Shown one piece after another: positions 7,861-18,877 of a stretch of 64,000 nt of DNA (positions are counted from its first letter, which is position 1; each line of letters opens with the position of its first letter). The notes under the pieces are model-generated. The model did not search any database, had not been told where the DNA came from, and saw only the letters and a list, made by a program, of their open reading frames with translations. The DNA is taken from assembly GCF_011074955.1 (NCBI RefSeq), contig NZ_WUQJ01000031.1, forward strand, positions 186,001 through 250,000. The letters run 5' to 3'. This DNA comes from Marinobacter caseinilyticus (lineage in GTDB: Bacteria; Pseudomonadota; Gammaproteobacteria; Pseudomonadales; Oleiphilaceae). Made by a program: the position numbers and the translations under genes.

Positions 7861-8229
7861 TCAGGCCGCGCATTCCTCGCGCTGGCCGGCATGCACCGCC
7901 ACCTGAACCTGGTCGCCGTCCAGTTGCACGGCGTAGGTCGGCACCTTGACCGATGCGTCCTCCAGGCATTGTCCGCTTAACAGGCTGTAATGCTGTTTGT
8001 ACAACGGTGAGGCCACCACCGGTTCACCTTTGATATCGCCTACAATGCCCCGGGCCAGCACGTTGGCGTTGCCGATTGGGTCAAAGTGGCCAATGGCGTA
8101 CAGGCTTGGTGTTTCGTCTGGGCAGTAGAACACGGCGACCGGTCCGGCCGGGGTCCAGACGGCGATGCCGGAATTGGCGACCAGGTCGGCGGTTTCACAC
8201 ACGGTTTGCCACTGTTTTTGCTGACTCAT
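7861..8229 (-). CDS. nirD: assimilatory nitrite reductase small subunit NirD
   Basis: A 122-residue Rieske-fold subunit of the NAD(P)H nitrite reductase, which with NirB reduces nitrite to ammonium in the cytoplasm. The sequence runs WQTVCETADLVANSGIAVWTPAGPVAVFYC, then FDPIGNANVLARGIVGD and SPLYKQHYSL. As usual for NirD, the Cys-X-His pairs that bind a Rieske cluster are missing, so it should carry no iron-sulfur centre. It starts 11 bases after nirB ends and is the last gene of the nasC-nirB-nirD unit. Confidence 0.93.
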   Translation of the reverse strand: MSQQKQWQTVCETADLVANSGIAVWTPAGPVAVFYCPDETPSLYAIGHFDPIGNANVLARGIVGDIKGEPVVASPLYKQHYSLLSGQCLEDASVKVPTYAVQLDGDQVQVAVHAGQREECAA

Positions 8230-8240
8230 AGCGTTTCTCC

Positions 8241-10760
8241 TTAAGCCATTTCTTCCACGGTTTCTGTAGCTGCAGGCCGGCGTTGGCCGCGCTCCTCGAC
8301 CCAGTGCTGGACCGGATCCTTGCGCTCATCGTTGACGAATTCACGGAACCGCTTACGCTTCTCCGGGTCTTCGACGACAGTTTTCCATTCACACTGGTAG
8401 GTGCCGACGATGTCGCCTATATGGGCTTCCAGCTCTTCGCCCAGTCCCAGGCTGTCGTTGAGGATCACCTCTTTAAGGTAGGCCAGCCCACCCTCGAGGT
8501 TTTCAAGCCAGACACTGGTGCGTTGCAGACGATCGCCGGTGCGGACGTAGAACATCAGCACGCGGTCGATGGTGCGGATAAGTTCGTCGTCGTTCAGGTC
8601 GGTGGCGAACAGATCGGCGTGACGGGGGCGCATGCCGCCGTTGCCGCAGACGTACAGATTCCAGCCGTTCTCGGTGGCAATCACGCCGATGTCCTTACTT
8701 TGGGCTTCGGCGCACTCGCGGGTGCAGCCGGAGACCGCAAACTTGATCTTGTGGGGGGAGCGCAGGCCCTTGTAGCGATCCTCCAGGCGAATGGCCATGC
8801 CGACACTGTCCTGCACGCCATAGCGGCACCAGGTACTGCCGACACAGGATTTCACCGTGCGCAGGGACTTGCCGTAGGCGTGACCGGTTTCAAACCCTGC
8901 GGCGATAAGCCGCTCCCAGATTTCCGGCAGTTCGCTCAGGGTGGCGCCAAACAAGTCGACCCGCTGACCACCGGTGATCTTGGTGTAGAGGCCATAATCT
9001 TTGGCGACCTGGCCCAGCACGATCAGTTTGTCCGGGGTGATTTCGCCGCCGGGAATGCGTGGCACGATGGAGTAGGTGCCGTTCTTCTGCATATTGGCCA
9101 TGAAGGTGTCATTGGTGTCCTGCAACGGCACGTGATCGGTGGCCAGAATGTGTTCGTTCCAGCAGGTCGCCAGGATCGAGCCCACGGTGGGCTTGCAGAT
9201 GTCGCAGCCCCGGCCCTTACCGTGCTGTTCGATGAGCGTGTCGAAGGTGCGGATGCCATTGACCTTGACCAGATGAAACAACTCCTGGCGGCTGTACGGA
9301 AAGTGTTCGCACAGGTCTTTGCTGACTTCGACGCCGCGCTTTTCGAGCTCGTTGTCGACCACATTTTTCAGCAGCGCGGCGCAACCACCGCACCCGGTGC
9401 TGGCCTTGGTGCCGGACTTGATGCCGGCCAGATCGCTGCAGCCGGCGTCAATGGCACTGCAAATATCGCCCTTGGTAACGTTGTGGCAGGAGCAGATGGC
9501 GGCCGTGTCCGGCAGTGCGTCCGGACCGAGGGCCGGGGCGCCGCCCTCGCTCTCGGGCAGAATCAGGGTTTCCGGGTGGTCCGGCAATTTGATGCCATTC
9601 AGCGCGTACTGCAGCAACGTGTCGTACGGACCATTGTCGCCCACCAGTATGGCGCCGAGCAGGGTCTTGCCGTCGGCGCTGATCACCATACGACGGTAGT
9701 GCCCAGCGGCTTCGTCGTTGAAGCGAATATTGCGCGCACCGGGGGTCTGGCCATGGGCGTCGCCAATGGAGCCGACGTCCACGCCCAGCAGTTTCAATTT
9801 GGTGCTCATGTCAGCGCCGGTGAACGCGGCCTCGGCATCACCGTTGAGACAGGCCGCCAGGGTGCGGGCCATGGTGTAGCCCGGGGCGACCAGGCCGTAG
9901 ATCCTTTGTTCCCAGAGTGCGCATTCGCCAATGGCGTGGATGTGGGGGTCGGAGGTGGTGCATTGATTGTTCACCACAATGCCGCCGCGCTCGCCAATCA
10001 CCAACTCGGCCGACCGGGCCAGCGCGTCCTGGGGCCGGATGCCGGCGGAGAACACAATCAGGTCCGTCTCCAGATGGCTGTCGTCGTTGAAGTTCATGCG
10101 CAGACGGGCCTGCCCACCGGGCACAATGCTCTGGGTGGCCTTTTCGGTGTGCACCTGGACGCCCAGATCGACAATTTTCTGTTTCAGCACGGCGCCGCCG
10201 TCGCTGTCGAGTTGCACCGGCATCAGCCGTGGCGCAAATTCCACCACATGGGCCTCAAGCCCGAGACTCTTCAGCGCATTGGCCGCTTCCAGTCCCAGCA
10301 ACCCGCCGCCGACGACAACGCCGGTTTTGACCCCGTCGGCACTGGCCCGGATCGCATCCAGATCCGCCAGTGTCCGGTAGACCAGGCAGTGCGGCTGATC
10401 GTTGCCTTCGATGGGGGGCACAAACGGGTAAGAGCCGGTGGCCAGCACCAGCTCATCGTAGGGGTATTGACCCTGGGGTGTGGTGACCCGCTGGTGCTGG
10501 CGGTCAATGGCGGTGACTTGCTCATTCAGCCGCAGGTCAATGTGATTGTCGCGGTACCAGTCGGCGGTCCCCAGAGCCAGATCGGCGTGGGTCGCCTCGC
10601 CAAAGTACTCCGACAGATGCACGCGGTCATAGGCCAGTAACGGCTCTTCGCCGAAAACCGTGATGTGGTAATTCGCGGCGCCCGGGGTGTCGGCAAACTG
10701 CTCCAGGAAGTGGTGTCCGACCATGCCGTTGCCAATAACAATCAGGTTTTTCTTGCTCAT
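8241..10760 (-). CDS. nirB: assimilatory nitrite reductase large subunit NirB
   Basis: An 839-residue multidomain flavo-haem enzyme; six-electron reduction of nitrite to ammonium. Start chosen at ATG 10760 to give the usual MSKKNLIVIGNGMVG beginning; an ATG lies five codons upstream. The order is an FAD/NAD domain (GNGMVG; TGVVVGGGLLGLE), a BFD-like [2Fe-2S] domain (CSCHNVTKGDICSAI and TGCGGC), then ferredoxin-like and sirohaem/[4Fe-4S] domains with CVGSTWCRYG and SGCTRECAEAQ. All cluster ligands are present and the length is normal. Lies 55 bases after the NasC-like gene and shares its regulated leader. Confidence 0.96.
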   Translation of the reverse strand: MSKKNLIVIGNGMVGHHFLEQFADTPGAANYHITVFGEEPLLAYDRVHLSEYFGEATHADLALGTADWYRDNHIDLRLNEQVTAIDRQHQRVTTPQGQYPYDELVLATGSYPFVPPIEGNDQPHCLVYRTLADLDAIRASADGVKTGVVVGGGLLGLEAANALKSLGLEAHVVEFAPRLMPVQLDSDGGAVLKQKIVDLGVQVHTEKATQSIVPGGQARLRMNFNDDSHLETDLIVFSAGIRPQDALARSAELVIGERGGIVVNNQCTTSDPHIHAIGECALWEQRIYGLVAPGYTMARTLAACLNGDAEAAFTGADMSTKLKLLGVDVGSIGDAHGQTPGARNIRFNDEAAGHYRRMVISADGKTLLGAILVGDNGPYDTLLQYALNGIKLPDHPETLILPESEGGAPALGPDALPDTAAICSCHNVTKGDICSAIDAGCSDLAGIKSGTKASTGCGGCAALLKNVVDNELEKRGVEVSKDLCEHFPYSRQELFHLVKVNGIRTFDTLIEQHGKGRGCDICKPTVGSILATCWNEHILATDHVPLQDTNDTFMANMQKNGTYSIVPRIPGGEITPDKLIVLGQVAKDYGLYTKITGGQRVDLFGATLSELPEIWERLIAAGFETGHAYGKSLRTVKSCVGSTWCRYGVQDSVGMAIRLEDRYKGLRSPHKIKFAVSGCTRECAEAQSKDIGVIATENGWNLYVCGNGGMRPRHADLFATDLNDDELIRTIDRVLMFYVRTGDRLQRTSVWLENLEGGLAYLKEVILNDSLGLGEELEAHIGDIVGTYQCEWKTVVEDPEKRKRFREFVNDERKDPVQHWVEERGQRRPAATETVEEMA

Positions 10761-10815
10761 GGTGTTCACTCTCATCGTGTTCGGTAAAAGAAAAATTCGG
10801 TTGTGACTCGGTGCG

Positions 10816-12039
10816 TCAGGCCGGTGTCTCGCAATAGGCCGGACCAAAGGCCAGATTCGTCCGCCAGTCGGTGATATCGGTGCCCTGCTGGATATGCTCG
10901 GCGTACCAGGGCCCGTCACGGGTCTCGCCAAAAAGCACTGCGCCGGTCAGCCGCTGGTGGCGAATCAGTAGCCGGCAATAGCGATTGCTGCTGTAGTCTT
11001 GCCAGACCACCGATTCGGTGGCGTCGTCCGGGCGGGTCTGGCCGCAGGAATAAATCGGAATGCCGCTGATCTTGAGTCGCGTCGGTACGATGGCCGGGAT
11101 GTAGGTTGCATCCAGTAGCGAACCGCTGAGCACCTGGGCCAGAACGTTGGCTTGCTGGTAGCCGGGGTCCACCAGGCCAAAGGTCTGGTCATCGACCTGG
11201 CAGCACTCGCCGAGTGCGTAAATGCTGGGGTCGCTGGTCTGCAACCGATGATCGACGCAGATGGCGCGGTCGCAAGCCAGCCCGGCAGCCTGGGCCAATT
11301 CGGTGTTCGGGGTAATGCCGGCGGCGACGACCACCAGGTCGGTGCTGATCAGGGTTTCGTCCGTCAGTTGCACGGCGCGCACCCGCTGGCTGCCCAACAG
11401 CGCCCTGGGGGCGGTGTCGGTTTGTATGGTCAGGCCCCGCGCACTGAGAATCTCCTTCAGCAGGGCGCCGCCGACGGTATCGAGCTGCCGGTTCAGTAAA
11501 TGCGAGCTCCGGTGCAGCAGGGTAACGGCCATGCCCCGATGGCGCAGGCCTTCGGCCGCTTCCAGACCCAGGAACCCGCCGCCGATGACAACGGCGCGGC
11601 GGTTGCGTTGACTGATGTCGATCAGCTTTTGGGTGTCCCGCAGGTCACGGAAACCCACCACTCCGTCCAGGTCTTCGCCGTCCAGACCCAGACGGGCCGA
11701 GCGTGAACCGGTGGCCAGCACCAGGTGATCATAGGCTTCGGTATGGCCTTGTTCGGTGTGGACCTGTCTGGTGTTTGGGTCAACGCGAACGACCGGGTCA
11801 CCCTGTCGCAGCAGAATGCCGTGCTTCAGGAACCAGGCCGCCGGTTTGAGTGTCAGGCTGTCGGGGTCGGCATCGCCGGCGAGCCAGGCAGAAAGCTGGA
11901 TACGGTTGTAGGCGACGGCCGGTTCGCCGCTCAGGACCACAATGCGGCTGTACGGTCGCACGGTTTGCTCCGACAGACGCTCCAGCAAACGCTGGGCGAC
12001 CATTCCGTGCCCGATTATCACCAACGTGTGTGTAGCCAT
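10816..12039 (-). CDS. NasC-like FAD/NADH reductase of nitrate assimilation
   Basis: A 407-residue pyridine nucleotide-disulfide oxidoreductase closely resembling the N-terminal half of NirB. FAD site VIIGHGMVAQRLLERL; NAD site RRAVVIGGGFLGLEAAEGL; second FAD contact STDLVVVAAGITPNTEL. Start ATG 12039 follows GGAG; the frame extends upstream only through the leader terminator. Klebsiella NasC feeds NADH electrons to the nitrate reductase NasA and also carries iron-sulfur centres; here no cysteine cluster is visible, whereas NasA has a C-terminal BFD-type domain that could supply the relay. Electron donation to NasA is inferred from position and family. Confidence 0.82.
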   Translation of the reverse strand: MATHTLVIIGHGMVAQRLLERLSEQTVRPYSRIVVLSGEPAVAYNRIQLSAWLAGDADPDSLTLKPAAWFLKHGILLRQGDPVVRVDPNTRQVHTEQGHTEAYDHLVLATGSRSARLGLDGEDLDGVVGFRDLRDTQKLIDISQRNRRAVVIGGGFLGLEAAEGLRHRGMAVTLLHRSSHLLNRQLDTVGGALLKEILSARGLTIQTDTAPRALLGSQRVRAVQLTDETLISTDLVVVAAGITPNTELAQAAGLACDRAICVDHRLQTSDPSIYALGECCQVDDQTFGLVDPGYQQANVLAQVLSGSLLDATYIPAIVPTRLKISGIPIYSCGQTRPDDATESVVWQDYSSNRYCRLLIRHQRLTGAVLFGETRDGPWYAEHIQQGTDITDWRTNLAFGPAYCETPA

Positions 12040-12053
12040 AGCGCTGCTCCAAC

Positions 12054-12147
12054 AAAAAAAGCCGGAGCATCTCATCCCGTTAGGGAATCGATGGTCCGGC
12101 GCCAATGCCAATAACGATTTTCAGGTGGTCCGGTCATCCATGACCGG
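12054..12147 (-). promoter_or_regulatory. ANTAR-type (NasR/NasT) antitermination leader of nasC-nirBD
   Basis: Reading on the minus strand: hairpin P1 (12147-12130) has stem CCGGUC/GACCGG and hexaloop AUGGAU. Hairpin P2 (12111-12096) has stem UUGGC/GCCGG and hexaloop AUUGGC. Both loops have A at position 1 and G at position 4, the pattern described for ANTAR-protein RNA targets. The 3' arm of P2 overlaps the 5' arm (GCCGGA, 12100-12095) of an intrinsic terminator that pairs with UCCGGC and ends in seven U at 12060-12054, just before the ribosome site. P2 and terminator are therefore mutually exclusive. Function is inferred. Confidence 0.78.
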
Positions 12148-12186
12148 GACTTTCTTCCGTGCCCACTTTGCTTCTAACGAATACTC

Positions 12187-12311: not shown

Positions 12312-13241
12312 TCAGGCGATGGCGCGCTCCCGTGCCTGCGCGTCATGGCTGCTGGTGGCAGCCGTATCCGCCGCCTTGGTCGGTGGCTGGTCAGTGTCGG
12401 AGACGGTGGCAGATGGCGCCGGTGATGGCGCGCCGGTTGCGGGCTTGTCTTTGCTCGGAAACGTCTGCTTTTCATACAGGAAGGACAGCACGGCCTGACG
12501 ACAGCGGACGTAATCGGGGTTGTTGGCCAAGGTGACCCGGTTCCGTGGGCGTGGCAGATCAATCACCAGCTCCTCTCCGATGGTGGCCGCAGGGCCATTG
12601 GTCATCATGATGATGCGATCTGACAGCAACACCGCCTCGTCTACATCGTGGGTAATCATGATGACGGTGCTGTTCAGGTCCTGCTGGATGTCCATCAGTG
12701 CGTCCTGCAAATGGGCGCGGGTCAGGGCGTCGAGGGCCCCGAACGGTTCGTCCATCAGCAAAACACTGGGTTTCATGGCCAGTGCCCGTGCGATCCCCAC
12801 GCGTTGGGCCATCCCGCCGGAAATTTCCCCCGGCCGTTTATTCGCCGCGTGCCCCATGTTGACCAGTTCCAGGTTGTGCATGATCCATTCACGACGCTCC
12901 TTGCGGCTCATGGTCTTGCGGAATACCTGCTGAACCGCCAGCTGGACATTTTCATACACTGTAAGCCACGGCATCAGGGCGTGATTCTGGAACACCACGG
13001 CCCGCTCGGGGCCGGGGGTATTGACCTCGTGTCCATCCAGTACACAGCCGCCACGGGTGGATTGCAGCAACCCGGCCACGATGTTCAGGACCGTCGACTT
13101 GCCGCAACCGGAGTGACCGATCAGGGAGACGAATTCACCCTCGGCAATTTTCAGGTCAATATTCTCCAACGCCACAAAGGGTCCGTCCGGCGTGTCAAAA
13201 GACATATTCACGCCGGTTAACTCGAGATGGGATTTACTCAT
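12312..13241 (-). CDS. nrtD: nitrate ABC transporter, ATP-binding subunit
   Basis: A 309-residue ATPase that drives nitrate import with the preceding permease. Walker A GHSGCGKST, Q-loop QNHALMPWLTV, signature [14 protein letters not shown], Walker B LLMDEPFGALD and switch His in MITHDVDEA are intact. It belongs to the nitrate/taurine/sulfonate group (NrtD/SsuB/TauB), and the neighbours decide for nitrate. The last 60 residues form a Pro/Ala/Thr-rich tail not usual for the family. Starts 10 bases after nrtB stops. Between it and the NasC-like gene lies the regulated leader. Confidence 0.92.
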   Translation of the reverse strand: MSKSHLELTGVNMSFDTPDGPFVALENIDLKIAEGEFVSLIGHSGCGKSTVLNIVAGLLQSTRGGCVLDGHEVNTPGPERAVVFQNHALMPWLTVYENVQLAVQQVFRKTMSRKERREWIMHNLELVNMGHAANKRPGEISGGMAQRVGIARALAMKPSVLLMDEPFGALDALTRAHLQDALMDIQQDLNSTVIMITHDVDEAVLLSDRIIMMTNGPAATIGEELVIDLPRPRNRVTLANNPDYVRCRQAVLSFLYEKQTFPSKDKPATGAPSPAPSATVSDTDQPPTKAADTAATSSHDAQARERAIA

Positions 13242-13251
13242 GCTGCTCTCC

Positions 13252-14253
13252 TCATTCGTTCCACGCGACTTTCTTCTGGATCAACAACATGATCCGGTCG
13301 AGCACAAAGCCAATAAAGCCGATGGCCAGTACCGCCACCATGATTCGGCTCAGGGATTGGCTGCTGCCGTTCTGGAATTCATCCCAGACAAATTTTCCCA
13401 GGCCCGGGTTCTGGGCCAGCATTTCCGCTGCGATCAGCACCATCCAGGCAATGCCCAGTGATACCCGCAAACCGGTGAAAATCATCGGAATGGCGGACGG
13501 CAGCACCACTTTGAAGACGTGAGTCCAGAACGACAGCCGCAGCACCTTGGATACATTCAGCAGGTCGGGATCGACCGCCGCCACGCCCACACTGGTGTTG
13601 ATCAGCGTCGGCCACAGGCTGCACAGGGTGACGGTGATCATCGAAGTGATGAAGGCTTTCTCAAACATCGGGTCGGCACTGACGTACGTCGCCGACACCA
13701 CCATGGTCACCAGCGGCAACCAGGCCAGCGGTGATACCGGTTTGAAGATCTGGATCAGCGGGTTTACCGCAGCCGCGAAGTAGCGGTTGAGCCCGATCAG
13801 AATGCCAATCGGCACCGCAATGAGACTGGCCAGGAAAAATCCCGACAGCACCGTCAACAGACTGGTGCCGATCTGGCTGAAGAAGGTCGGGGCACCGGGG
13901 TAGTCCCGAATCCGCACTTCGGCGTCGGGGTTGTCGGCCAGAATCCCGGCATTGCGGTTTTCCTGCATCGTAATAAAGCGCTCGGCCCGCTCCTGCTCTG
14001 ACTGGTGCTCCTGCCAGAGCTGGCCGGCCTGTTCAAAAACGTCCGCCGGCGCCGGGAAAGTGCCCAGGGACGTATTCACCTGGGGCGCCATGACGTGCCA
14101 GAACGCCACAAACAGGGCCAGACCAATGGTCGGCAGCAGCAGCGCTTGGGCTCTGTCGCCCAGAGCCCGGGCCGAAAACGTTTCGGCCAGCACCCGAAGG
14201 GCGGACTGTGAGGCGGACACCTTGTCGGATGGTGTGTTCGTCAGCGTTGTCAT
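13252..14253 (-). CDS. nrtB: nitrate ABC transporter, permease subunit
   Basis: A 333-residue inner-membrane permease. Start ATG 14253 is preceded by AGGAGATATGCA; the upstream frame has no ribosome site. The first hydrophobic segment lies near residue 50 (LLPTIGLALFVAFWHV), followed by a long hydrophilic stretch around residues 75-130, and then the BPD-type transmembrane domain with VSPLAWLPLVTMV and the cytoplasmic EAA-like loop. The long loop after the first helix is typical of NtrB/NrtB proteins. Lies between nrtA and nrtD with short spacers (25 and 10 bases). Confidence 0.92.
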   Translation of the reverse strand: MTTLTNTPSDKVSASQSALRVLAETFSARALGDRAQALLLPTIGLALFVAFWHVMAPQVNTSLGTFPAPADVFEQAGQLWQEHQSEQERAERFITMQENRNAGILADNPDAEVRIRDYPGAPTFFSQIGTSLLTVLSGFFLASLIAVPIGILIGLNRYFAAAVNPLIQIFKPVSPLAWLPLVTMVVSATYVSADPMFEKAFITSMITVTLCSLWPTLINTSVGVAAVDPDLLNVSKVLRLSFWTHVFKVVLPSAIPMIFTGLRVSLGIAWMVLIAAEMLAQNPGLGKFVWDEFQNGSSQSLSRIMVAVLAIGFIGFVLDRIMLLIQKKVAWNE

Positions 14254-14278
14254 TGCATATCTCCTGACAGTATCGGGA

Positions 14279-15637
14279 TCAAGGGGTCTGCTGACCTTTG
14301 AGCCCAATGTCAAAACTGTCGATGTAGGCATTGGGTGTTGCCGGTGTAAACGGCACGCCGTCGATCAATTTGCCTTGTTGTGGGCGGGCAAAATTGTCGT
14401 TGGCCATGTCCGGGAAATCGCTGGCCGCTAACAGGCCATCGTCAATCAGCGACTGGGCCGCCTGCTCATAGATATCCGCGCGGTAAACCTGGGCCGCGGT
14501 CTTCATGTACCAGTCATCGCTCTTGGCTTCCGCGATCTGGCCCCAGCGACGCATTTGCGTCAGGTACCAGATGGCGTCCGATGGGTATGGGTAGGTGGCG
14601 TAGTAGCGGAAAAAGACGTTGAAATCGGGAACCGACCGGACATCGCCTTTTTCATACTCGAAGGTACCGGTCATGGAATTGGCAATGACTTTTTCGTCCG
14701 CACCGACATAGTTGGAGCGTGCAAGAATTTTGACCGCTTCTTCCCGATTGGCGTTGTCGTTCTCATCCAGCCAGTGGGCGGCCCGAATCAGCGCACGCAG
14801 CATGCGCAAGTGGGTGTTGGGGTTTTGCTTGGCCCAGCCCTCTGACACACCAAACACTTTTTCCGGGTTGTTGGGCCAGATTTCGTAATCGGTAATCACC
14901 GGCACGCCAATGCCCTGAAATACAGCTTGCTGGTTCCATGGCTCGCCGACGCAATAGCCCTGGATGGTACCCGCTTCAAGCGTTGCCGGCATCTGTGGCG
15001 GTGGTGTCACTGACAAATGAACATCGGCCTTCAGGGTGCCACTGGTATCGCCGGTCTGGGGCGAATAAAAGCCGGGGTTCAGGCCACCGGCCGCGAGCCA
15101 GTACCGCAATTCATAGTTGTGGGTGGAGACCGGAAAGACCATGCCCATGCGAAAGCGCTCGCTTTTGTCCTTATACGCCTCAACGACCGGCTTGAGGGAG
15201 GCGGCGCTGATCGGGTGTTCCGGTAGCCCGTTGGCCTGCATCGGCAGGCTTTCTTTCATGCCCTCCCAGACTGCGTTCGACACGGTGATGCCGTTGCCGT
15301 TGAGGTCCATGCTGAACGCCGTGATGATGTTGGCCTTGGTGCCATAGCCAATGGTGGCGCCTAGCGGCTGACCTGCAAGCATATGGGCGCCGTCGAGTTC
15401 ACCGGTGATGACCCGGTCCAGCAAAACTTTCCAGTTGGCCTGGGCTTCAAGCTCAACAAATAGTCCTTCATCCAGGAAAAACCCCTGCTCCCAGGCAATG
15501 GCCAATGGTGCCATGTCGGTCAGTTTAATAAAGCCAAGTTTCAAGTCCGGCTTTTCGGCCGGTCCGATGTCTGCCGAGGCCAGTGTGTTGAGGCCGGTTA
15601 AAAGCAGCAGTGCGACTGCGAACTGTCGAAGTTTCAT
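14279..15637 (-). CDS. nrtA: nitrate-binding ABC transporter protein
   Basis: A 452-residue periplasmic nitrate-binding protein. Start ATG 15637, with AGGGAGAACAGG before it, gives a signal peptide [16 protein letters not shown] ending near LASA-DIG. Mature sequence [20 protein letters not shown] is the classic NrtA/NasF opening, and [33 protein letters not shown] and [16 protein letters not shown] segments follow. No lipobox is visible, so it should be free in the periplasm. First gene of nrtABD, behind a sigma-54 promoter and an attenuator leader. Confidence 0.94.
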
Positions 15638-15666
15638 CCTGTTCTCCCTGGGGTGGTGTACCCGCC

Positions 15667-15732
15667 AAAAAAAACGCCCACTCCCCATCAGAGGGGAGCA
15701 GGCGCCAATGCCTGCAGATCGCTTTGATCTGC
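15667..15732 (-). promoter_or_regulatory. attenuator leader of nrtABD, ANTAR-like
   Basis: On the minus strand: a first hairpin (15732-15714, 7-bp stem GCAGAUC/GAUCUGC, five-base loop AAAGC), then a second (15715-15698, stem GCAGGC/GCCUGC, hexaloop AUUGGC). An intrinsic terminator follows (15704-15675, 12-bp stem with two G-U pairs, loop UCUGAU, then eight U). The 5' arm of the terminator overlaps the 3' arm of the second hairpin, so only one can form. The AUUGGC loop is identical to that of the nasC-nirBD leader. The first loop is one base short of the hexaloop rule, which lowers certainty. Confidence 0.7.
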
Positions 15733-15803
15733 GTATGTGGTTTCAGGGTATTGGGGTTGGTCCCCGGCAACGCCCTAAAAAAGTAATCGTCGTGTCAAAG
15801 CTA

Positions 15804-15821
15804 ATGCATGCGCTGTGCCAA
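15804..15821 (-). promoter_or_regulatory. sigma-54 promoter of nrtABD
   Basis: TTGGCAC-AGCGC-ATGCAT on the minus strand matches TGGCAC-N5-TTGCA with one mismatch and the exact GG-N10-GC spacing. A start near 15795 gives a leader of about 160 bases. About 100 bases further up, TGCACCAACTGTGGGC (15915-15930) weakly resembles an NtrC site. Confidence 0.78.
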
Positions 15822-16014: not shown

Positions 16015-16031
16015 TTGGCCTCTAAATTGCT
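16015..16031 (+). promoter_or_regulatory. sigma-54 promoter of nasA
   Basis: TTGGC-CTCTAAA-TTGCT has exact GG-N10-GC spacing (GG 16017-16018, GC 16029-16030) and both conserved cores. It is weaker than the other two because the CAC after GG is CCT. Transcription from about 16042 would give a 175-base leader. Two copies of TATAA[CA]AGTCAGAT flank it (15985-15999 and 16033-16047). Confidence 0.65.
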
Positions 16032-16043
16032 ATATAAAAGTCA

Positions 16044-16143
16044 GATTGAGTAGACAATCGTTAAGGCAACAGTGCCCGACTGGGTTTTCCGAGAGATTTG
16101 GTTTCGATTGAGACCGCTCCGGTAAACCCGTCGGGCTTTTTTG
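16044..16143 (+). promoter_or_regulatory. attenuator leader of nasA
   Basis: Two small hairpins, GATTG-AGTAGA-CAATC (16044-16059) and GGC-AACAGT-GCC (16065-16076), precede a strong intrinsic terminator. The latter pairs GCCCGAC (16074-16080) and GGGTTT (16082-16087) with AAACCC and GTCGGGC (16124-16136) and ends in six T. The 3' arm of the second hairpin overlaps the terminator's 5' arm, as in the other two nitrogen leaders. Both loops are hexanucleotides starting with A, but position 4 is A, not G, so the ANTAR match is incomplete. The terminator itself is clear. Confidence 0.6.
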
Positions 16144-16216: not shown

Positions 16217-18877
16217 GTGAAACAGGAATCATCGTGTTCGGTCCGAACGACCTGCCCCTATTGTGGCGTTGGCTGTGGCGTCATTGCCCAGGCCACGTCG
16301 GGACAGGCGGTCGCAGGCGACGCTCAGCATCCCGCCAATCATGGCCGGCTGTGCGTGAAAGGCGCCAGTCTGCATGAGACGCTGGGTTCCAATGGCCGGC
16401 TGCTGTCGGCCAAAGTCCGGGGCCGAACCACGCCGCTCGCCGAAGCGCTGGACGCTACTGCCGAGGCCATCCGGCAGTCGATTGAGACTTACGGGCCGGG
16501 TTCGGTTGCCTTCTATCTATCGGGCCAGTTACTGACCGAAGATTATTACGTGGCCAACAAACTGGCAAAAGGGTTTCTCAAAACGCCCCACGTCGATACC
16601 AATTCCCGGCTTTGCATGTCGTCGGCGGTGGCCGCCCACAAGCGGGCGTTCGGTGCCGATGTGGTGCCGGGCTGTTATGAGGACCTGGAGTTGGCCGAGC
16701 TGCTGGTGTTGACCGGCAGCAATACCGCCTGGAATCACCCCATTCTGTATCAGCGGATGAAGGCCGCCGCCCGACGAGGACGGCGCGTGGTAGTGATCGA
16801 CCCGCGCGAGACGGCCACCACCGAATTGGCCGACCTCCACCTCAAATTGCGCCCCGGCACTGACACCGTGCTGTTTAATGGTTTGCTGGTGTGGCTGGTG
16901 GATCACAACGCCATTGATTGGGATTTCGTTGACAATCATTGCCAGGACCTGGACGTCGCCGTCGCCGCGGCCCGGGAAGCCGCGCCCGATGTCGCCGCCG
17001 TTGCGGCGCTCTGCGACCTTGCCAAAAGCGATGTCGAGGCATTCTTCGAGTGGTTTGCAGCGACCCCCAGAACGGTGACGGGCTTCTCCCAGGGCAGCAA
17101 CCAATCGGTGGCGGGCACCGACAAAGGCAATGCCATTATCAACTGCCACCTGGCGACCGGTCGGATAGGCAAGCCGGGTGCGAGCCCGTTTTCCATCACC
17201 GGGCAACCCAATGCGATGGGTGGCCGGGAAGTGGGCGGCCTGGCCAATACGCTGGCGGCCCACATGGATTACGACAGCCCCGGTGCCTGCGACCGGGTGG
17301 CGCGGTTCTGGCAGACCGATGCGGTGGCGGATGGGCCCGGACTCAAAGCGGTCGATCTTTTCGACGCCGTGCACCGAGGCGACATCAAGGTTTTGTGGGT
17401 GATGGCAACCAATCCCGCCGTTAGCCTGCCGGATTCCACCCGGGTTCGTGAGGCGATTAAGCGCTGCCCGACGGTGATCGTCTCCGACTGCATCGCCCGC
17501 ACCGACACCACGATGCTGGCGGATATCCTGCTGCCGGCGGCCGGCTGGGGCGAAAAAAATGGCACCGTGACCAATTCCGAGCGGCGAATCTCACGCCAGC
17601 GCTCATTCCTGCCGCAAGTGGGGGATGCACGGCCCGACTGGTGGCTGGTGAGTGAGGTCGCCCGACGTCTGGGGCATGCCCACGGTTTTGGCTACGACAC
17701 CGCCGCCGATATCTTCCGCGAACACGCCGCGTTGTCTGGCTTCGAAAATGACGGCGCCCGGCTGTTTGATATCAGCGCGCTGGCAACGCTGTCAGATGCC
17801 GCGTATGACACGCTGGAACCGGTACAATGGCCGGTACGAGCCACCGCTACGAACACCAGTCAGCGACTGTTTTCAGACGGTCGCTTCTGCACCCCGGAGG
17901 GGCGTGGGCGGTTGATTCCGATCCGGACCGTGGTGCCGGCGGCAGTGCCCACGACCGAGGCACCGATGATTGTGAACACCGGTCGTGTCCGGGACCAATG
18001 GCACACCATGACCCGCACGGCCCGATCGCCCCGGCTGCTGCAGCATCGTTCCGAGCCGTTCATTGAGATGCACCCCGACGACCGGCTGGCGTGCGGCATC
18101 GAACAAGCCGGCCTGGCCACCCTGGAGCAGGGCCTGAACCGGTTTACCGGTCGGGTGCGGGAGACCGCGGCTCAGCGACGGGGTGAGGTGTTTATTCCAA
18201 TTCACTGGAACCAGCAATACGCCTCGGCTGGCCTGGCCTCCCAACTGATCGCCCGGGTCGTCGACCCGATCTCCGGACAGCCGGAGTCGAAACATGGCGT
18301 GGCCGCCCTGAAGCCCTTTGAGGCCCGCTGGTATGCCCGGTTGTTGTGCCCGGCTGAACAGCCGCGCAGTTGGTTGGCCGACTACTGGAGCCATGCGCCG
18401 TTAGCCGACTGCGACAGCTGGTGGCTGGCGGGACAGCGATCGGTGGACTGGTCTGCGGAGGTCGGCCACTGGCTGGGCGGAGCACCGCAAATGGTGCTGT
18501 CCGATCCCCAGGAAGGCCGCTTTCGCGCCGCCCGGCTAAAGGGCGGGCGAGTGGTGGCCATCTTGCTGGTGGATGCGATCTCGGAGCGCCTGCCGCCGGT
18601 GGACTGGCTGGCCAGCTGTTTCGCGCTGGACAAGCTGACCCCGGAGCAGTGCCGCAACCTGCTGTCCGGCCGGGATGTGGCGCAAGAAGACATTGGCACG
18701 GTGGTCTGTAGCTGTTTCCAGGTCGGCGAACGGCAGATTGCCAAGGCCATTGCCGATGGCGCACAGGATGTGGCAACCCTGGGGGCTCAGCTCAAGTGCG
18801 GCACCAACTGCGGCTCGTGCCTGCCGGAACTCAAGGCGCTGGTGTCCAGGCTAGGTCTCGAGCCGGCGGAGCATTGA
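16217..18877 (+). CDS. nasA: assimilatory nitrate reductase catalytic subunit
   Basis: An 886-residue cytoplasmic molybdopterin enzyme reducing nitrate to nitrite. Start is GTG 16217, seven bases behind AGGAG. Cys13, Cys16, Cys20 and Cys46 form the N-terminal [4Fe-4S] site. Molybdopterin-binding segments follow, including NSRLCMSSAVAAHKRAFGAD, VLTGSNTAWNHPI and TGRIGKPGASPFSITGQPNA. The molybdopterin dinucleotide-binding domain starts near LIVNTGRVRDQWHTMTRTA. The C-terminus carries a BFD-like [2Fe-2S] domain (CSCFQVGERQI and CGTNCGSC), as in Klebsiella-type NasA. Divergent from nrtABD; its stop overlaps the converging SprT-like gene by 27 bases. Confidence 0.95.
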   Translation: MKQESSCSVRTTCPYCGVGCGVIAQATSGQAVAGDAQHPANHGRLCVKGASLHETLGSNGRLLSAKVRGRTTPLAEALDATAEAIRQSIETYGPGSVAFYLSGQLLTEDYYVANKLAKGFLKTPHVDTNSRLCMSSAVAAHKRAFGADVVPGCYEDLELAELLVLTGSNTAWNHPILYQRMKAAARRGRRVVVIDPRETATTELADLHLKLRPGTDTVLFNGLLVWLVDHNAIDWDFVDNHCQDLDVAVAAAREAAPDVAAVAALCDLAKSDVEAFFEWFAATPRTVTGFSQGSNQSVAGTDKGNAIINCHLATGRIGKPGASPFSITGQPNAMGGREVGGLANTLAAHMDYDSPGACDRVARFWQTDAVADGPGLKAVDLFDAVHRGDIKVLWVMATNPAVSLPDSTRVREAIKRCPTVIVSDCIARTDTTMLADILLPAAGWGEKNGTVTNSERRISRQRSFLPQVGDARPDWWLVSEVARRLGHAHGFGYDTAADIFREHAALSGFENDGARLFDISALATLSDAAYDTLEPVQWPVRATATNTSQRLFSDGRFCTPEGRGRLIPIRTVVPAAVPTTEAPMIVNTGRVRDQWHTMTRTARSPRLLQHRSEPFIEMHPDDRLACGIEQAGLATLEQGLNRFTGRVRETAAQRRGEVFIPIHWNQQYASAGLASQLIARVVDPISGQPESKHGVAALKPFEARWYARLLCPAEQPRSWLADYWSHAPLADCDSWWLAGQRSVDWSAEVGHWLGGAPQMVLSDPQEGRFRAARLKGGRVVAILLVDAISERLPPVDWLASCFALDKLTPEQCRNLLSGRDVAQEDIGTVVCSCFQVGERQIAKAIADGAQDVATLGAQLKCGTNCGSCLPELKALVSRLGLEPAEH

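Follow-up and report, generated by a model that had tools for sequence, protein, structure and literature searches.

An ANTAR-type attenuator leader before nasC-nirBD in Marinobacter caseinilyticus, and related leaders at sites without nas genes in other Marinobacter genomes

The two-hairpin RNA motif of ANTAR-controlled leaders, with A and G at loop positions 1 and 4 (A1 and G4), its regulators NasR and NasS-NasT, and the sigma54 promoter of the NalA leader are described in the sections of earlier reports on which we draw (PMC3369931, PMC7496416, PMC3795266, PMC12830290, PMC3973561, PMC8934654). In Pseudomonas aeruginosa and P. putida, nirBD is preceded by the NalA leader, which is controlled by NasT and has been termed a small RNA (PMC12830290, PMC3973561). 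The nasF leader of Klebsiella oxytoca combines a NIT-ANTAR protein with two A1/G4 hairpins and a terminator (PMC7496416, PMC3369931), one such leader serving nasFEDCBA. The EutV motif likewise has dual hexaloops, the second hairpin (P2) overlapping the terminator, and in the EutX/Rli55 system a small RNA sequesters EutV (PMC8934654). In E. coli, RNAs derived from 5'UTRs act in trans as sponges (PMC7815308).

The window analysed here, a stretch of 64,000 nt of Marinobacter caseinilyticus (contig NZ_WUQJ01000031.1, positions 186,001 to 250,000), carries a leader before nasC-nirBD (Table 1), which our analysis confirms as an ANTAR attenuator that closely resembles the Pseudomonas leader NalA. The two have in common a terminator-bearing leader before nirBD and, judged here from sequence, a sigma54/NtrC promoter and ANTAR antitermination; they differ in the regulator (NasT in Pseudomonas, NasR in the window genome) and in nasC being the first gene in the window. 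Its NIT-ANTAR protein, two A1/G4 hairpins and terminator are those of the K. oxytoca nasF leader, and its dual hexaloops and the overlap of P2 with the terminator those of the EutV motif. Unlike K. oxytoca with its single leader, separate leaders stand before nrtA, nasC and nasA.

Table 1. Leaders and nas genes in the window (P1 and P2, first and second hairpin; loops in brackets).
Feature	Position	Strand	Sequence and basis
nirD, nitrite reductase small subunit	7861-8229	minus	TIGR02378 above cut-off
nirB, nitrite reductase large subunit	8241-10763	minus	TIGR02374 above cut-off; start codon of our choice
nasC-like NAD(P)H/FAD reductase	10816-12039	minus	Pyr_redox_2 + Rubredoxin_C
nasC leader, intrinsic terminator	12054-12100	minus	stem 12100-12061 + U7 12060-12054; sequence, fold, covariation
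nasC leader, P2	12111-12096	minus	uuggc[AUUGGC]gccgg; hexaloop 12106-12101; two basal U-G pairs
nasC leader, linker between P1 and P2	12112-12129	minus	18 nt; sequence
nasC leader, P1	12147-12130	minus	ccggtc[AUGGAU]gaccgg; hexaloop 12141-12136; sequence, covariation
nasC leader, sigma54-type -24/-12 box	12202-12187	minus	TGGCACGGTTATCGCA; GG-10 nt-GC; sequence
Nitrate ABC transporter ATPase	12312-13241	minus	TIGR01184 above cut-off
Nitrate ABC transporter permease	13252-14331	minus	protein-family matches
nrtA, nitrate transporter binding protein	ORF 14279-15688	minus	protein-family matches
Second ANTAR-type leader, before nrtA	15667-15820	minus	sigma54-type box 15820-15805
nrtA leader, 5' hairpin	15732-15714	minus	5-nt loop, no hexaloop
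nrtA leader, P2	15715-15698	minus	gcaggc[AUUGGC]gccugc; sequence
nrtA leader, terminator	15705-15675	minus	followed by U8 15674-15667
Third, deviant leader, before nasA	16016-16142	plus	by eye; sigma54-type box 16016-16030
nasA leader, P1	16044-16059	plus	GAUUG[AGUAGA]CAAUC; A4, not G4
nasA leader, P2	16065-16076	plus	GGC[AACAGU]GCC; A4, not G4
nasA leader, terminator	16074-16136	plus	followed by U6
nasA, assimilatory nitrate reductase with C-terminal BFD-like domain	16217-18877	plus	NCBIfam matches under cut-offs

An earlier, sequence-only reading of this DNA had proposed an ANTAR-type leader before nasC-nirBD, and the anatomy, the covariation of P1 and terminator, and the one NIT-ANTAR gene of the genome bear this out. 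Both of the hexaloops that it named, AUGGAU and AUUGGC, carry A1 and G4 and lie where it placed them, on the minus strand, the strand being left unstated at the time. They belong to two consecutive short hairpins, the arrangement that characterises ANTAR-responsive attenuators, and P2 overlaps the terminator, a further mark of that class. The overlap, also correctly recognised before, consists of GCCGG, which is both the 3' arm of P2 and the 5' arm of the terminator, so that the two structures are mutually exclusive. From the end of the U7 tract to the nasC ATG (12039) there are 14 nt. The upstream box, GG-10 nt-GC in a TGGCAC/TTGC-like context, is conserved and on sequence grounds represents a putative sigma54 promoter: TGGCA and GC are unchanged across 22 aligned leaders and in 11 leaders at sites devoid of nas genes (hereafter orphan leaders). 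The -24/-12 box takes its name from the sigma54 consensus. Taken on its own, the window copy is ordinary; the strand, the conserved box and the persistence of the leader without nas genes in 11 congeners are additions to the first reading.

The transporter genes (12312-15688) lie upstream of the nasC leader on the same strand, and nasA is divergent. For the nasC-like product the best NCBIfam match is the N-terminal half of NirB, under cut-off, and a homologue search returned eight named loci (four from Marinobacter, one each from Tamilnaduibacter and Halomonas, and two weak and unrelated).

Folded alone, the leader RNA adopts P1 and the terminator without P2, which is the expectation in the absence of protein; its folding energy is unremarkable (z -1.52, with 15 of 200 shuffles equally good). 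Covariation was assessed in the 22 aligned leaders against 500 shuffles, with structures slid along the alignment as a further control. The arms of P1 and of the terminator covary in these relatives, and the genome does have an ANTAR-domain gene (below), so that neither outcome named beforehand as refuting the first reading occurred. The P1 stem is paired in 100% of cells with double-sided changes in 3 of 6 pairs (one sequence is gapped), and the terminator in 95.5% of cells with such changes in 9 of 14 pairs. The P2 stem is also paired in 100% of cells, which says little because it is nearly invariant. For the terminator, none of five measures was reached in 500 shuffles; for P1 and P2 together, the covariation score was reached in 0 of 500, the number of doubly changed pairs in 6 and the number of pair types in 352, fractions that are not probabilities since the leader sequences are related. 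Slid structures gave far lower scores than the real alignment. A U-G to U-A change in P2 of two genomes (G006 and G021) is compensated in the terminator. The Rfam covariance-model search that had been put forward as a check matched no relevant family, either at gathering score in the window or in looser searches, a negative result that counts only if Rfam 15 includes an ANTAR family.

The proposed genome search for nasR or nasS-nasT pointed to NasR: the single ANTAR match in the window genome is a 450-codon NIT-ANTAR (NasR type) frame on another contig, with matches to PF08376 (4e-55) and PF03861 (3.5e-16), and such a NIT-ANTAR regulator is the hallmark of Klebsiella-type, NasR-controlled nas genes. 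This nasR (L001:328-1680 / L214:4018-5370) is separate from the nas contig and in that differs from nine NasR-type relatives.

Sensors were compared in 20 fetched loci (L065-L084), one of which (L083) comes from another family and has no regulator within its stretch. In nine of the 20, nasA and nrtA are separated by an ANTAR gene some 215 codons long and by an additional NrtA-like gene, an arrangement assigned to NasT-NasS with a Pfam check in one locus, L066 (response regulator + ANTAR; NMT1_2). In nine others a NIT-ANTAR gene adjoins the leader in antisense orientation, eight of these genes sitting between transporter and nasC; the stretch of G012, also of the NIT-ANTAR type, contains neither transporter nor nasC. 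G006 has neither regulator type at its nas locus, and its nasR is decayed, with ANTAR positions 4-39 of 54 left and NIT-like scraps in other frames. In this near relative of the window genome P2 of the nasC leader lacks A1 and P2 of the nrtA leader looks degenerate, while the terminators are kept. The leader is found in all sensor types. These gene arrangements indicate that NasR and NasS-NasT are swapped between congeners at one cluster with the same leader, and since this leader goes with a sensor of one component (NasR) in some species and of two (NasS-NasT) in others, RNA and sensor appear to be interchangeable.

A covariance model of the leader (R1) was searched in 124 genomes of the genus Marinobacter and matched 103 of them. 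ANTAR matches were present in 97, a number that includes fragments in G006, G075 and G091 and some AmiR-type proteins. Leader and ANTAR occur together in 94 genomes, the leader only in nine, ANTAR only in three and neither in 18, an association with a Fisher value of 2e-12 when phylogeny is ignored. One of the three genomes with ANTAR and no leader (G087) was tested, and its ANTAR protein is AmiR-type. Among 390 genomes drawn from the order and searched under strict filters, R1 gave 18 matches, 16 in the genus, one elsewhere in the family and one more distant. Neither a Marinobacter nas leader nor an orphan nas leader was named among the matches listed from an open-access literature subset.

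The 103 genomes carry 104 leaders (two in G053). In this genus nasC as first gene, which the earlier reading took to be less usual, is the rule: nasC comes next in 78 of the 91 nas-associated leaders and nirB in the other 13, and a further 13 leaders are followed by neither. A1, G4 and the closing pair of P2 are intact in 90 of the 91, the exception being G006 with its decayed nasR, and these determinants are broken in 5 of the 13 leaders that lack nas genes downstream (in 4 of the 11 that form the strict set defined below). The textbook two-hairpin architecture claimed for the window leader holds for that copy and does not extend to the genus, where P1 is looser than the textbook ANTAR motif: among the nas-associated leaders, its loop is an A1/G4 hexaloop in only 8, an A1/G4 loop of 7-9 nt in 74, and neither by script in 9. 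ANGGA is kept in 81 of the 91, more than ANTAR reportedly needs.

We favour, with a probability of roughly 90%, the view that the window leader is a sigma54-plus-ANTAR attenuator run by NasR. This builds on the observed anatomy, covariation, single NasR-type gene and leader-ANTAR association in the genus, while promoter activity, binding, ligand and read-through are deduced. Under nitrogen limitation the promoter, presumably activated by NtrC, would start a transcript near 12176. With neither nitrate nor nitrite present, the RNA would form P1 and the terminator, and transcription would end at 12054. When either is present, NasR, supplied from another contig, would bind the P1 and P2 loops and stabilise P2; with the shared arm thereby taken up, polymerase would read into nasC-nirBD. 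Control of these genes by nitrate or nitrite is thus what the presence of NasR would imply. That P1 and P2 are incidental, and the element a plain intercistronic terminator that lowers read-through from the transporter genes into nasC, would agree with the fold of the RNA alone and with its position between same-strand genes. It is nevertheless extremely unlikely, as conservation in the 22 leaders and across the genus extends to the loop and stem of P2 and to the sigma54-type box, and the leader is kept in the 8 of 20 loci where an antisense nasR splits transporter from nasC. Against an attenuator count the negative Rfam searches, the looser P1 of the genus, the shared ancestry that the leader-ANTAR association ignores, and two single cases: in G006, P2 of the nasA leader still has A1/G4 despite the decayed nasR, and G077 has nasA with neither leader nor ANTAR match.

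The sequence-only reading had found the nasC leader and missed the two others in the window, those before nrtA and nasA. In NasR-type relatives, a GGC-N6-GCC P2 with A1/G4 was called by script before nrtA in 7 of 8; that of G013 was missed by the script, GGCAAAGGCGCC being visible by eye. The same form of P2 lies between nasS and nrtA in 9 of 9 NasST-type loci. The nasA leader of the window was recognised by eye, without a script call. P2 of the corresponding leader in 18 relatives has A1/G4 by script in 12 and G1 in G011, and among the five uncalled, G006 (AAUGGU) and G024 show A1/G4 by eye. The nasA leaders of G005 and G013, also among the uncalled, seem to lack a terminator and have an AAGAAGC-like stretch near the start codon instead. 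The A4 that replaces G4 in both loops of the window nasA leader is an oddity by which acceptance by NasR could be tested.

In 11 of the 103 genomes with a leader, the nas genes have gone from the site, and searches gave no nas regulator. Nine have no ANTAR match (G001, G002, G048, G050, G066, G068, G083, G121 and G122) and two have AmiR-type ANTAR only (G079 and G133). Retention of a nas regulator in these two could be ruled out, their AmiR-type ANTAR genes lying beside an ABC permease. Two of the 13 leaders without nas genes next to them were kept outside this strict set: G104, which lies at a contig edge, has another nirB elsewhere and could not be aligned in P2 and linker, and G106, in which neither nasC nor nirB comes directly after the leader and the ANTAR frame is short. 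At the syntenic orphan site, the leader stands between the SprT-like gene and other genes. In 14-17 kb around the 11 leaders, tblastn with nasA, nrtABC, nasC, nirBD, NasR and NasT gave nothing at E 1e-6, and all 11 genomes lack nirB (their best match scores 109.5 bits, compared with at least 1241 where nirB is present). A scrap of nasC, seen by eye beside the leader of G083, suggests that some nas losses are recent. Genes for a wax ester synthase (WS/DGAT) and a TM2 protein follow further on in 10 of the 11 and are absent from the G050 stretch. Sixteen leaderless genomes also have the SprT-like gene. It adjoins WS/DGAT in five and TM2 in seven, and these 12 empty sites indicate that the leader has been lost there; three show neither gene in the fetched stretch. 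In the remaining one, G077 (L185), nasA adjoins the SprT-like gene.

On a tree of the SprT-like gene (47 rows), which is linked to the site and in which G077 is labelled leaderless although nasA is present, the orphan label requires 8 changes, 7 of them forced by well-supported branches. Shuffled labels gave a mean of 10.0 changes, with 33 of 500 shuffles as low as the observed value, so that orphans are nearly scattered. G001 pairs with the nas-bearing G019, and G079 with the nas-bearing G016. A poorly resolved tree of an unlinked MFS gene (15 rows) has at least 3 forced changes; G001 again pairs with G019, and G121/G122 group with the nas-bearing G009. We speak of changes rather than of losses alone, as nas genes may also be regained by recombination.

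Mean identity in the 55 pairs of orphan stretches is 80% in the leader, compared with 59% over the preceding 120 nt and 54% downstream; for shuffles it is 54%. Promoter-like and terminator-like sequence is present in all 11 leaders. TGGCA and TCGC of the box, ANGGA after the P1 5' arm, and a block of 27 nt reaching from the end of P1 to the third loop position of P2 are identical in 11 of 11. The exact 27-mer is found in 12 of the 13 leaders without nas genes next to them versus 58 of the 91 with them. P1 forms with an A1/G4 loop in 10 of 11, its stem in G050 being broken by a mismatch. Three orphan pairs (G002/G068, G121/G122 and G066/G133) were compared column by column, with gaps counted as differences and one shared loss assumed per pair. 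Differences per column were 0/81 in the linker and 0/56 in P1 (together 0/137), 3/48 in the sigma54 box, 8/72 in the spacer, 17/157 from P2 to the terminator, 40/330 in the upstream flank and 92/227 downstream; since G002 and G068 are only 3/110 apart upstream, it is the other two pairs that carry the weight. The ANTAR determinants of P2 are broken in 4 of 11 orphans (closing pair in G002 and G068, G4 in G048 and G122) against 1 of 91 nas-associated leaders (G006), with a Fisher value of 4e-4 when phylogeny is ignored.

These observations, together with a next gene of opposite orientation in 6 of 11 orphans, suggest that in some members of the genus the terminated leader may have a job of its own as a small RNA. 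On the corresponding dual-function view, which we hold to be evenly balanced, the nas leader would serve nitrate assimilators as an ANTAR attenuator in cis, and its terminated form, driven by sigma54, would be a small RNA that regulates other genes through its P1-linker core. This second job would be important enough for promoter, P1, linker and terminator to survive repeated losses of nas genes and ANTAR regulator, with the P2 determinants beginning to decay in orphans. In the window, the 27-nt block has 6 differences from the form in most congeners, and as its linker thus departs from the conserved 27-mer, the second role is unsupported in M. caseinilyticus. The passages on NalA in PMC12830290 and PMC3973561 say nothing of retention after loss of the operon, and the abstract of PMC7815308 does not mention it for the E. 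coli 5'UTR-derived RNAs; the orphan leaders differ from both in this respect. Unlike EutX/Rli55, they sit in genomes where neither NasR nor NasT was matched.

It is also conceivable, though rather unlikely, that orphan leaders are neutral scars of deletion or allele exchange, which have survived by chance or for the sake of the terminator only. That leaders can disappear is shown by the 12 empty sites among 16; some losses are recent (the nasC scrap in G083), and through recombination in the flanking genes the orphan state could propagate or nas be brought back. Such a history requires both sides of the cluster to go while some 150 nt in between stay, and is hard to reconcile with the number of changes on the SprT and MFS trees and with the unchanged P1 and linker between diverged flanks; retention as a terminator only would leave the kept sigma54 box and linker unexplained. 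It is improbable that the retained RNA acts through CsrA/RsmA binding instead of base pairing. ANGGA after the P1 5' arm and an upstream ARGGA, which we presume to be CsrA motifs, occur in all 11 orphan leaders, the first of them within the P1 loop in 10; however, there are only two such motifs, the linker is equally invariant and contains no ANGGA, and ANTAR needs A1/G4 in the same loop, which makes conservation of the motif in nas-bearing genomes ambiguous. Still less probable is continued control of a neighbour in cis, namely WS/DGAT. In 4 of 11 orphans this gene does follow the leader in the same orientation, 73-104 nt away, and it stands behind nirD in several nas-bearing genomes, but the next frame of at least 110 codons is oriented against the leader in 6 of 11 (with it in 5), and neither NasR nor NasT is present, the ANTAR genes of G079 and G133 being AmiR-type. 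One opposite-strand neighbour, in G083, is an AcrB-type pump by Pfam, and the others were named by resemblance.

As for base pairing by a small RNA, the linker is predicted to be about half unpaired in the 11 orphans (0.43-0.59) because a weak hairpin, CCAUCAG/UUGUUGG, can form, and this speaks against a simple open seed. In nas-bearing genomes, this predicted hairpin may be an anti-P2 element. A search of 14 genomes for the 15-mer complement of part of the linker, with at most one mismatch, found the leader itself in all 14 and eight other places, against one for the reversed control (in G016). Two of the eight are in one amidohydrolase-like frame (by eye; G019 and G122) and a third falls on the start of an MFS gene in G122. 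A 13-mer searched in 19 genomes matched 26 places, namely 18 leaders, the MFS start codon in three genomes (G016, G068 and G122) and five unrelated places; its reversed control had 0 matches. The duplex energy at the MFS start codon beats shuffles (p <= 0.05) in 7 of 14 orthologues, in a test chosen after the fact on related orthologues, a fifteenth locus (G003) being left out as too distant. The MFS transporter start region (L204:1510-2694, L231, L252), complementary to the linker, is a weak candidate target and a lead only.

The genus thus offers two natural experiments, the exchange of sensors on one leader and a leader that outlives its operon and its protein. If the orphan leader is transcribed and useful, an attenuator would here clearly have become an independent small RNA.
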